DNA from: an uncultured Methanobacteriaceae archaeon
GTDB lineage: Archaea; Methanobacteriota; Methanobacteria; Methanobacteriales; Methanobacteriaceae
Length of the DNA: 47,165 bases
Direction of reading: 5' to 3'
Assembly: GCA_902797085.1 (NCBI GenBank)
Contig: CADBRM010000086.1
Coordinates: forward strand, 1-47,165
The notes under the pieces are model-generated. The model was not told the DNA's origin. It saw nothing but the letters and a program-made list of their open reading frames with translations, and did not search any database. Shown piece by piece: positions 8,551-40,085 of the stretch (positions are counted from its first letter, which is position 1; each line of letters starts with the position of its first letter). A program made the translations under genes and the position numbers.

Positions 8551-10572
8551 CTAAGCAACTTTATAATGGTCGGCAGTTGGTGAATAAATTACTCCCTTGC
8601 TAGTAAGCATATTGATCATGTCATCTGCCTTATTTTCTGAAATGTTATACTTGTCGGCTAAGTTTCCATATATGACATTCTTAGGAGCACTGCCTCCATA
8701 TTCATCGGATATCTCCTTAATTTCATCAATTAGTATATTGATTTTGTCTCGCTCTGATTTGGAAGTTCTACCTTCTACTTTGTCTATGTCAACTTTACCT
8801 GTATCAGGGTCATAACCGACTTGTTTCATACAATCTTCCTGTAATTTGATTGCACGTTCAGCATCCTCTTTACTTACTTCGGAACTTAATCTGATTTTTG
8901 CGCTGGCTTCAGATAAACGTACGAGAGCTTCCAGTTGACGGGCAGTAATAGGAACAGGTGATTCTTCATCAATTGCTCCACTACGCATAGTCACATAGAA
9001 ATCTTGTAAAACCTTTGCCGCTTCCTTGGATAATACAGGTTGGACTGTTCTACGGGCATATGCAATGTATTTACGCATAAGCTCAGGATCGATTTCATAG
9101 TTGATGTTTCTGTCTTGATGTATTTTAAGTATGTGTCCTGCAAGGCTATGGTCTCTTTCTGCATTAGGTTTGTCTTCAATAATGAATATTAAATCAAAAC
9201 GTGACAAAATAGGTGATGGCAAGTCAATTTGTTCGGCAATTGATTTGTATCTGTCAAACCTACCAAATTTTGGGTTAGCTGCTGCAAGTACACTACAACG
9301 ACTGTTCAAGGTAGCCATAATTCCTGCTTTTGCTATGGAAATGGTTTGTTGTTCTAATGCTTCGTGTATTGCAGATCTATCCTCTTCGCGCATTTTATCA
9401 AGTTCGTCTACACATACATTACCTTTATCCCCTAATACTAATGCACCTGCTTCTAAACTCCATCCTCCCAGGTCATCACGAACTGCTGCTGCGGTAAGCC
9501 CTACCCCACTGGTACCTTTACCACTGGTGTAAATACCACGGGGAGCTAACTTTGAAACATATTTGAGAATTTGAGATTTACCAATCCCCGGATCTCCAAC
9601 AATAAGGATATGCATATCCCCTCTCATATGTGTTTTATCCTCGAGTATTTTGGCACTACCACCAAACAATTGGAATGCAATTGCTTCTTTAACTTCGTAG
9701 TATCCCTGAATGGATGGTGCGGTTGAATCAATAATTTTTTGATAAATGTCCGGTGAACTGGCAAGACGTTTAATTTCTTCCTCGTCTTCTTCACTAATCT
9801 CCAACTCTTCGAATTCTTGCTCTAAAGGTTCAAAGAAGTTACCATATATATAATTATTGAATCGTTTGGTTCTATCATCACGAACGGTTTTGAGTATTCC
9901 CGTTATTCTAATTTTATCTCCAGGAGTTAACGTATCTACCAAGTCATCTTCCAGTACAATATTAATCTGTCTTGGTTGGTCTCCACCGGATAGGTTTTCC
10001 AAAGGTTCTTGTAATTTAACAGTTTGTGTGTCCATGTATCGGGATTCTTCCTGTAGTAATTTGAAAGATCTTCCACCACATTCGGTACAAACTGCAGGTT
10101 CGTGTATGATATTTGATTTTTGTTCAACTTCATGTATCCTCATACAACTTCTACATTCAAAAACAGCAGTCATTATTCTAGGATGAATTTCATCTGTTTT
10201 TCTGACAATACCATCCACAGCAATAAACTTTCCAATGTATTCACTGCGCAAGTTTCTTAATGCTACATGATTACGGATATTGGAAAATCTGACATTTAAC
10301 TGTGCATTTTTTCTCTGTGGATCAATATTTGTAATAGATTTTGTTGCAGCTTCTAGTGTTTCATCAGGTTTTTCTAATAATAAATCAGCTAAATCAGGGT
10401 CAAACATTTCTAAACTGTTGTAATCTATGACAACTGATTTTTCTTCTGGATAAACATCTAAAACTGCAAATATTTCATCTTTACAAAGTTCACTAAAAAA
10501 TTCTTCCAACTTTACTATTGATGATGCAGAAGACCTAATCTTGTTTTCATTTTCTGCTGTTGTTGTAGTCAT
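8551..10572 (-). CDS. mcm: MCM replicative helicase
   Basis: A 673-residue minichromosome maintenance protein, the hexameric replicative helicase. Order: N-terminal domain with a C4 zinc finger (C140, C143, C162, C165), an OB fold, then the AAA+ core with Walker A GDPGIGKS (326-333), Walker [10 protein letters not shown], and LSRFDLIF with the arginine finger. A C-terminal winged helix follows ([20 protein letters not shown]). No intein interrupts it. The start at ATG 10572 lacks an obvious strong ribosome binding site, so leaderless translation is possible. It is divergent from the small membrane protein gene at 10699. Confidence 0.97.
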
Positions 10573-10698
10573 ATGATATACTTTATAATTTTTATAATTT
10601 TTATAGATTGGTTATTTCAAAAAAATTTTTTGATATCATAAAATTTATTAATTAATGTTCTCTTATATTTATATAATATAGATTATTAGAGGTTTCAA

Positions 10699-30817: not shown

Positions 30818-32356
30818 TTATTTGCGTTCCATTCTTGCTTTACGGATATTTGCCATTATTTCTTTAGCTCTATCGGAGTCTAAAGGAATATTGAATTTTT
30901 CTTCAATACTTTCTCTGTATAAATTATTCATTGAACAGAAAGGTATGATTCTACCATCCGGAGTAGCATAGTGAATTACACATCTGCGCACTCTGTTCTG
31001 ATCAAAGTTGAAAGGATCCATAAAGTGCATACATGATATTAACAAAGCATTTACGTGGAATTCACCTAATGCATCATAATCTTGTTTTATGAATATGTTT
31101 TTAAGTAAGTCGATGATGTTGATATATGATGGTGATTTTTTGGTATCAACTGTTTTTGGTAATTCTTTTAGTGCACGAGCGATTGTTTTAGTTTTTGAGA
31201 TTCTGGAATTTTTTTGAATATCTGGAATGCTTTTTTCAATTAATTTCATAAATTTGTCTACATCAATGAAGTCTGTGATTGGAATTACAGTTCCATCTTC
31301 TTCTTTGAATACGTAAGTACCGATACCACAATGTTCATGACATGTTAATGTAACTTCAGCTTCCGTTCCACTCATTGCTGCAATTAAGTCGGAAATAGGA
31401 GCTACTGTGGATGCGGAATAGAATGCATCAGCGGTGATGTTGAAATTAGTTTGTTTTTCAACATTTTTCATAAAATCATCAATTGTAATACGTTGTTCTT
31501 CGACTTTGTCTGAAGGTGTTCTACCGGCAAAGGATACTGGTTGGAAGTTAACTCCTCTAATTACATCGATATTGTCTAGTGCAAATTTAATAATTTGACC
31601 TACTTGGTCATTGTTGATTCCTTTTACTAAAGTAGGAACTAATACAATTCCAAGACGTGCTTTTCTACAATTTTCTATTGCTTCTAGTTTTTTACTTAAT
31701 ATGTTAGCGTTACGTGTTTTGATGTATGGTTCTTCAGTAACACCATCAAATTGTAAATAAATTGTATTAAGTCCTGCTTCTTTAAGTTCTTTTGCTAAAT
31801 TTTCATCATTTGCTAATGCTAAACCATTTGTTGCTATCTGTGTATGGGTGAATCCTTCTTCTTTAGCAATTTTTATCAAGTCTACTATATCATCTCTTAC
31901 AGTAGGTTCTCCACCGGAGAATTGTATTGCAGGAGTAGCGACTGGCTGGTTTTTCCTTAAATTTTTAAGCATTTGTCTGATTTCATCTTGTGACGGTTCA
32001 TACAAAGTTCCAGAAGTTGCTGCATTTGCGAAACAAATAGGACATTGTAAATTACATCTATTTGTAACATCGATTAGACCTAGTATTGTTTGACTTTCAT
32101 GTTCTTTACATAAACCGCAATTTGAAGGACAATCTCCTGTAATATTTTCATTTAAATTTGTTAATTGGTGTGGTTCCGCACCATATTTTAAAGCTTTTTT
32201 ATAAGCTTCCTCATCATGCCAGTATGTGTTATTAAAAAATCCATGTTCTGGGCATGTTTTTTTGATGTATATGGCATTATTTTCAGTATATACTTCTGCG
32301 TCCAAAATTTTTAGACATTCTGGGCATAAACTTTTCGTTTTAGAGATTGTTGCTAT
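30818..32356 (-). CDS. Radical SAM protein, tetraether lipid synthase (Tes)-like
   Basis: With the start taken at 32356 the protein has 512 residues. Cys-rich segments: LCPECLKI (C11, C14) with TCPEHG (C35); DCPSNCGLCKEH (C76, C80, C83); radical SAM NRCNLQCPICFA (C101, C105, C108); then CHEHCG and a C-terminal CVIHYATPDGRIIPFC. This multi-cluster layout matches Tes/GDGT-MAS (MJ0619 type), which couples archaeol chains into tetraether lipids. The first canonical start is TTG at 32305, which would remove C11 and C14. GGAGG (32368-32364) lies 7 nt before an in-frame ATA at 32356. CarS is divergent next door. Other Tes-like radical SAM paralogues remain possible. Confidence 0.82.
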   Translation of the reverse strand: MATISKTKSLCPECLKILDAEVYTENNAIYIKKTCPEHGFFNNTYWHDEEAYKKALKYGAEPHQLTNLNENITGDCPSNCGLCKEHESQTILGLIDVTNRCNLQCPICFANAATSGTLYEPSQDEIRQMLKNLRKNQPVATPAIQFSGGEPTVRDDIVDLIKIAKEEGFTHTQIATNGLALANDENLAKELKEAGLNTIYLQFDGVTEEPYIKTRNANILSKKLEAIENCRKARLGIVLVPTLVKGINNDQVGQIIKFALDNIDVIRGVNFQPVSFAGRTPSDKVEEQRITIDDFMKNVEKQTNFNITADAFYSASTVAPISDLIAAMSGTEAEVTLTCHEHCGIGTYVFKEEDGTVIPITDFIDVDKFMKLIEKSIPDIQKNSRISKTKTIARALKELPKTVDTKKSPSYINIIDLLKNIFIKQDYDALGEFHVNALLISCMHFMDPFNFDQNRVRRCVIHYATPDGRIIPFCSMNNLYRESIEEKFNIPLDSDRAKEIMANIRKARMERK

Positions 32357-32684
32357 ATTAATCCCTCCCCTAAAAAATTTTTTTATATATTAATAACGAT
32401 TTCTTTATGATATTCAGTTAAATTATTATAAAATTAATATTATATATAAATTATGTTATTTATTTAATATATTTATTATGTATTATTTGGAAATATTTTT
32501 GAATAATGTTTATAGATTCATTAAGGTTTTTTTTTCATTTACAATAATAAATATTCAGTATTTTGTCTATATTTTTGTTTTTTAATCTTATTTTACTAAA
32601 TTGTTATTCTTTGATGAAGAAAATTATTTATAAATTAATTTAAAGATAATGTATTATATTTAATAAAAAAAATCGTGGTTAAAA
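32357..32684. promoter_or_regulatory. Divergent intergenic region between the Tes-like gene and carS
   Basis: About 330 nt of very AT-rich DNA between two membrane-lipid genes. Apart from GGGGAGGG before the radical SAM gene and TATA-like stretches, I see no structured RNA or clear repeat. It probably holds both promoters. Confidence 0.4.
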
Positions 32685-33248
32685 ATGGATGTTCTAACAA
32701 TAATAATATATTCGATATACTTAATGATTCCAGCTTATTTTTCCAATGGTTCTGCTTTGGTCTTTGGTGGGGGTACACCTATGGACTTTGGAAAGAATGC
32801 ATGGGATAATCGTAGGTTAATTGGTGATGGCTGTACTTGGAGAGGTCTTATTGGCGGCGGATTGTTAGGTATGGTTGTTGGAGGTATTCTAGGGCTTTTG
32901 GCCAGTTATGGTATTGCTACATATTATTTTAATCTGTCTGCTTCCCAAATAACTTTAATTTCGGGGAATATTCCTCAAGGACTCTTGGTGGGTGGATTGT
33001 TGGGATTTGGAGCATTGATCGGTGATGCAATAGGCAGTTTCATTAAAAGAAGATTAAATTTTGAAAGAGGAAAACCGGTTCCATTATTGGATCAATTGGA
33101 TTTTGTAGTATTCGCATTGCTCTTTGTTTCATTTGTAATTAATTTAAGTTGGGAAATGATTTTAATTATCTTATTTGTAAGCATATTTTTACACTTAGGA
33201 GCAAATATTTTTGCATATTTGATTAATTTGAAAGATGTATGGTATTAA
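32685..33248 (+). CDS. carS: CDP-archaeol synthase
   Basis: A 187-residue integral membrane enzyme that activates digeranylgeranylglyceryl phosphate with CTP to give CDP-archaeol, the precursor of archaeal polar lipids. It has about five membrane helices and the family motifs [34 protein letters not shown], and [19 protein letters not shown] followed by LLDQLDF. The start at ATG 32685 has only a weak ribosome binding site. It converges with mfnF (4 nt between stops) and is divergent from the Tes-like gene. Confidence 0.95.
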
Positions 33249-39617: not shown

Positions 39618-39629
39618 GGGGTGAATATT

Positions 39630-40085
39630 ATTAAAGTAATGGCTTCTGGAACTTTTGATATTCTCCATCCGGGTCATGCATTTTATTTAGAAGAGGCAAA
39701 GAAGTTAGGTGGAGAAAAAGCGGAATTATTTGTTGTTATAGCTACGGATAAAACAGTAGAACGTCATAAGAGAATACCTATCATGCCTCAAGAACAGAGG
39801 GCAGAACTGATTTCTAAATTAAAAGTCGTGGATGATGTTTTTATTGGTGATGAAAATGATCCATTTAAAATAGTTAAAAACAAAAAACCGGATATTATAG
39901 CAATTGGACCTGATCAAAAGTTTTCTCCACAAAAATTGAAGAAACAATTAAATGACAATGGAATTGATTGTCAAGTGGTAAAAATTAAAGACTATAAAAA
40001 ATTTGGATTGGATAGTTCCTGTAAAATTATTCGTAAAATAAAAAATACACATTTTGATGAAAATGTTTTTGAGGATTGTGATTGA
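39630..40085 (+). CDS. ribL: FAD synthetase RibL-like nucleotidyltransferase
   Basis: An archaeal cytidylyltransferase-like FAD synthetase converting FMN and ATP to FAD. Motifs are ASGTFDILHPGHAFYLEEAKKLG (HxGH type), RIPIMPQEQRAELISKL, and IAIGPDQKFSP. AGGGGTGA (39617-39624) lies 5 nt before an in-frame ATT at 39630, giving M-K-V-M-A-S-G-T-F. A GTG at 39621 lies inside that binding site, and the first ATG (39639) is 14 nt away and would trim the first strand. I list the ATT start as best supported by spacing. Confidence 0.85.
   Translation: MKVMASGTFDILHPGHAFYLEEAKKLGGEKAELFVVIATDKTVERHKRIPIMPQEQRAELISKLKVVDDVFIGDENDPFKIVKNKKPDIIAIGPDQKFSPQKLKKQLNDNGIDCQVVKIKDYKKFGLDSSCKIIRKIKNTHFDENVFEDCD

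Follow-up and report, generated by a model that had tools for sequence, protein, structure and literature searches.

The tetraether lipid synthase gene (tes) of Methanosphaera almost certainly starts at AUA, or at AUU in some sister species, and not at AUG, GUG or UUG. The gene lies in the window, the whole stretch of 47,165 nt of contig CADBRM010000086.1 that was analyzed, and its conserved N-terminus is encoded upstream of every canonical start triplet in the frame. A survey of further genes suggested that such starts occur more widely in Methanobacteriaceae.

The tes gene and its N-terminus

The features of the tes region are as follows.

30818-32389, minus strand: stop-to-stop frame of tes
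30818..32356, minus strand: tes (tetraether lipid synthase), predicted, 512 codons from ATA; NF045702 equivalog and PDB 7tol/7tom match
32390..32392, minus strand: in-frame stop TAA 5′ of the tes start
32363..32370, minus strand: Shine-Dalgarno (SD) sequence GGGGAGGG, with its GGAGG core at 32368-32364
32354..32356, minus strand: ATA, almost certainly the start codon of tes; homologous codon compared in 18 Methanosphaera species
32243..32326, minus strand: rubredoxin-type metal site C11-X2-C14-X20-C35-X2-H38, numbered from ATA, with the spacing of the solved Tes
32303..32305, minus strand: TTG, first canonical start triplet in the frame, 3′ of CPEC and without an SD, unlikely to be used

An earlier note on this DNA had called the gene Tes-like, and profile and structure matches agreed. 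Its product is a predicted tetraether lipid synthase, which scored 726 bits against the NCBIfam equivalog NF045702 (cut-off 450) and matched PDB 7tol/7tom with E = 4.7e-171. The note had also described the frame as open back to the TAA at 32392-32390, with TTG 32305 as its first canonical start. We found the same: between the stop at 32392 and this TTG there was no ATG, GTG or TTG. The observation that tes has no canonical start before its conserved N-terminus is confirmed.

In the solved Tes, a rubredoxin-type iron is held by C9-X2-C12-X20-C33-X2-H36 (PMC9433317). The corresponding motif, C-X2-C-X20-C-X2-H, is complete when the Methanosphaera protein is read from ATA and incomplete when it is read from TTG 32305. 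CPEC, encoded 5′ of the TTG, provides C11 and C14 (all residues are numbered from ATA); this is the first Cys pair that had been placed upstream of the TTG, and it pairs with C35 and H38. The residues encoded upstream of the TTG include ISKTKSLCPECLK, and the N-terminal ribbon match dropped from 70 bits for the full protein to 38 bits for one begun at the TTG. The cysteines of the N-terminal auxiliary cluster (C76/C80/C83) and the radical SAM motif CX3CX2C (C101/C105/C108) are also present. The enzyme family and the metal-site motifs are common to this protein and to Tes (GDGT-MAS) of Methanocaldococcus jannaschii (7tol; PMC9433317), and by this comparison only the initiation codon of the Methanosphaera gene is unusual.

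Measured from the GGAGG core, the SD at 32370-32363 lies 7 nt from ATA 32356, as had been stated before. The SD spacing of canonical starts in the sampled Methanosphaera peaked at 7-9 nt. The note had favored ATA, or else a nearby ATT or ATC, as the start. The ATA was upheld and the others were not: ATT 32362 and ATC 32347 are both in the tes frame, but lie 1 and 16 nt from the core, and only the ATA has the modal spacing. We looked for an SD 5′ of TTG 32305 and found none, and there was no out-of-frame ATG between the SD and CPEC.

The gene carS (CDP-archaeol synthase; 32685-33248, plus strand; NF003114 above cut-off) is divergent from tes. Two steps of archaeal lipid synthesis are thus encoded around one common intergenic region.

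The start codon of tes in relatives

Among 18 Methanosphaera species, the homologous codon was ATA in ten, ATT in four, ATG in two and TTG in two. It is the tenth codon before CPEC, or the seventh in L007 and L008, which are three codons shorter. An SD-like run was found 5′ of it in the 18 species and CPxC was conserved in all of them, while the codon preceding it was free to vary (AAT, AAA, GAG, ACT, AGA, CAA and others). L002 and L016 have ATG at codon -10. In L005 and L006 the TTG directly follows a TGA, and therefore in-frame initiation further upstream is impossible there.

The earlier note had proposed an alignment with Methanosphaera homologues and had counted an ATG in related strains as evidence against its reading of ATA as the start. 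Such an ATG does occur in two species, yet the alignment, with ATA or ATT in 14/18, supports that reading. The two ATGs do not refute it because they mark, together with the two TTGs behind TGA, the same start codon, and because ATA or ATT is kept in 14 species, some of them with assemblies of one or two contigs.

ATT is the codon of the Methanosphaera lineage that branches deepest in the Tes tree, and the species with ATG or TTG are nested in ATA/ATT groups. For this reason the non-canonical start looks old: ATA/ATT looks ancestral in the genus, and the canonical codons seem to have been regained. Outside Methanosphaera, the start was canonical in all 63 loci with a readable motif, mostly TTG about nine codons 5′ of CPEC. 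Three loci had no canonical start, and all three were from Methanosphaera. Taken together, the data indicate that such a start of tes is a trait of the whole genus, and that AUA, AUU and AUC starts are in use across the family. Among loci L061-L140, outside Methanosphaera, TTG is the start codon of most Methanobrevibacter tes genes.

The codon pattern in the 18 species and the apparent ancestry of ATA/ATT make a sequencing error, a start at TTG 32305 and an AUA that codes for Met all unlikely. Initiation at some other codon, namely ATT 32362, ATC 32347 or, with frameshifting, an ATG upstream or in another frame, was also weighed. The ATT and the ATC are in frame and close to the SD, but their spacings of 1 and 16 nt compare poorly with the modal 7-9 nt. 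The stop before codon -10 in L005 and L006 and the ATG at -10 in L002 and L016 indicate codon -10, and no out-of-frame ATG exists from the SD to CPEC, so we consider this very improbable. A start at TTG 32305, which would leave the Methanosphaera Tes with only the second half of a rubredoxin site, seems less probable still. A gene caller limited to ATG, GTG and TTG would pick this triplet as the first canonical one in frame. However, it has no SD, its use would drop two of the four ligands (C11 and C14) along with almost half of the ribbon score (70 to 38 bits), and CPxC is found in 18/18 species, four of which have ATG or TTG at codon -10.

Two other readings concern the ATA itself. An ATA written in error for ATG would fit the draft metagenome-assembled genome to which the window belongs (143 contigs, 86.8% complete) and the ATG at the tes start of two relatives. 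The chance of this is minimal, as ATA recurs in ten species and ATT in four, including the 1-2 contig assemblies G003, G008, G009 and G014. Reassignment of AUA to Met, which would make the ATA an ordinary Met start, agrees with ATA being more frequent than any other codon at the tes start in Methanosphaera. But internal AUA codons of Methanosphaera tes aligned with Ile, Val and Leu (51, 22 and 16%) in relatives and not with a conserved Met, which was outside the eight commonest aligned residues; in addition, ATT and ATC likewise act as starts. We rejected reassignment as having hardly any chance of being true.

AUH starts in other genes of Methanobacteriaceae

We surveyed starts at AUA, AUU or AUC (AUH) in twenty 20-kb stretches (400 kb) from each of four Methanobacteriaceae genomes and Methanothermus fervidus, with ten 20-kb stretches from each of two other archaea as further controls. 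Codon bias served to call genes, and each start was scored by its pairing with an assumed anti-SD, which was taken from general knowledge; the sampled stretches contained no 16S 3′ end. We counted genes with no SD-supported canonical start and a strong SD before another codon. An unfiltered count of the codons that follow the strongest SD, in which genes with a good canonical start nearby were kept, was too noisy, and the filtered count and the spacing profile were used instead.

With thresholds of our own choice and small counts, the four Methanobacteriaceae together had 46 SD-led genes that lacked a usable canonical start, and in 28 of these the codon at the start position was ATA, ATT or ATC. 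By genome, the counts were 10/15 in G014 and 7/13 in G008 (both Methanosphaera), 6/12 in G026 and 5/6 in G034. Codon use predicts about 10% (P from 3.5e-7 to 2.6e-4 in the four genomes). The controls had no AUH excess (2/20 in M. fervidus, G049; 0/11 and 1/9 in the two other archaea). In Methanosphaera, AUH codons peaked at an SD spacing of 7-8 (17/33 versus 27/222 at 10-27, P = 9e-7), as they did in the other two Methanobacteriaceae (13/28 versus 28/223, P = 6e-5); the profile of the control archaea had no peak. The share of scored genes was 2-3% (10/326, 7/247, 6/270 and 5/233), compared with 2/383 in M. fervidus. From these counts, about 2-3% of genes in Methanobacteriaceae appear to use AUA, AUU or AUC after a strong SD. 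Some candidates are probably wrong, among them genes in which an ATG follows within a few codons and some membrane proteins.

Orthologues of three other candidate genes were compared. In a TIGR02090 synthase (isopropylmalate/citramalate/homocitrate type) from 19 Methanosphaera species, the codon was ATT in 11, ATC in one and ATA in one; of the rest, 5/19 had ATG one codon on and 1/19 had TTG. In ten of the 13 species with ATT, ATC or ATA, there was no ATG, GTG or TTG between the upstream stop and the end of codon 40. Methanogenesis marker 16 (TIGR03287) has ATA in G014 versus ATG in 16 other Methanosphaera. A 200-aa protein without a family match, at 20 loci, had ATA or ATT in ten, ATG in six, GTG in one and ACG in one, and two were unclear. 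Therefore, in several genes one and the same position is occupied by a canonical codon in some species and by an AUH codon in others. The ACG belongs to the orthologue in L327 (G011), whose first 40 codons contain no canonical start.

Other unusual starts were seen. In the window, a PF01467 cytidylyltransferase-like gene (39618-40085, plus strand) has GGGGTGA at 39618-39624 followed by ATT 39630, and reads IKVMASGTFD; its G014 orthologue also has ATT, behind AGGGGGT. The gene looks AUH-started, although an ATG three codons on leaves an alternative. The CTP synthase of G026 (LAKYIVVTGGVVSSIGKG; L181:1076-2674, minus strand) appears to start at a CTG preceded by AGGAG, and none of its canonical triplets makes a better start. 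An MCM-type gene of the window (8551-10611, minus strand) has an ATG start without a detectable SD, and is possibly leaderless.

Discussion

Initiation at AUA or AUU is not new in itself; both codons are among the possible starts of NCBI table 11. In Escherichia coli, infC starts at AUU and is autoregulated by IF3. As in tes, the start is near-cognate and conserved, and it departs from AUG at the third base. However, its codon serves a feedback by a factor that rejects AUU, whereas archaea use aIF1 and aIF2, and we know of no such feedback loop for tes. In Staphylococcus aureus, infC, cvfC1, ccpN and citZ start at AUA or AUU with an extended SD and give about 10% of the output of AUG (PMC13009471). 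These sites resemble tes in their strong SD, their fixed spacing before AUA/AUU and their conservation among relatives. They are four measured sites in a bacterium, whereas here, in a family of archaea, the share of 2-3% of genes is an estimate from sequence. Atypical archaeal starts have been suspected for HVO_1510 in Haloferax (PMC8305020) and for fohE′ in Methanobacterium, where ATA was suggested (PMC12667266). Both are archaeal genes with a conserved N-terminus and no canonical start, like tes, but each is an isolated and speculative example, whereas the argument for tes draws on a comparison of several species, on SD spacing and on controls. Prokaryotes that have been surveyed hardly ever use AUH starts: across 36 groups, a switch to AUU was seen at just one ancestral AUG start out of 61,358 (Belinky et al., PMC5622118). 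We did not find AUH starts described as a general feature of Methanobacteriaceae in the open-access literature searched. What seems new is an archaeal genus that keeps an AUH start in tes, and a family in which a few percent of genes apparently have one.

The position of the tes codon, its SD, spacing and conservation, and its interchange with AUG and UUG among relatives were observed; methionine insertion at AUA and initiation weaker than at AUG are inferred. The strong SD GGGGAGGG would position the 30S subunit 7 nt upstream of AUA 32356, and Met-tRNAi (anticodon CAU) would pair with the AU of the codon, with a mismatch at the third base. The product would begin with Met and have its rubredoxin-type site intact. 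The same scheme, an SD-held 30S with Met-tRNAi reading AU, might apply to AUH codons generally. We are confident that tes is translated from AUA 32356, probably in this way, and is a member of a wider AUH class in Methanobacteriaceae. The initiator tRNA of G014 is ordinary-looking (CAU anticodon, A1-U72, G-C-rich anticodon stem), so an altered anticodon is not the reason. Archaeal aIF1 disfavors non-canonical starts (PMC6237735). Together with the output of about 10% in S. aureus, this bias implies that a weak, possibly factor-dependent initiation is a likely consequence of AUH. Weak start codons may be favored by tes across Methanobacteriaceae. A low dosage of Tes as one reason for keeping AUA is speculation; carS feeds the same lipid pathway.

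On balance, we lean towards a relaxed start rule in Methanobacteriaceae, in which AUH codons with strong SDs would be standing starts, passed on by inheritance, in a few percent of all genes, among them lipid genes and genes of core metabolism, and some genus-kept weak starts would set low expression or sense initiation-factor levels. If so, gene callers restricted to ATG, GTG and TTG would shorten proteins of methanogens common in gut and rumen, or place their starts wrongly; for tes, canonical-only calling would remove metal ligands. Start-codon fidelity would also differ among archaeal lineages and would be open to study in culture; Methanosphaera stadtmanae can be grown as a pure culture. 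The single odd gene noted at first would belong to a pattern that extends across Methanosphaera, a gut methanogen, and its family.
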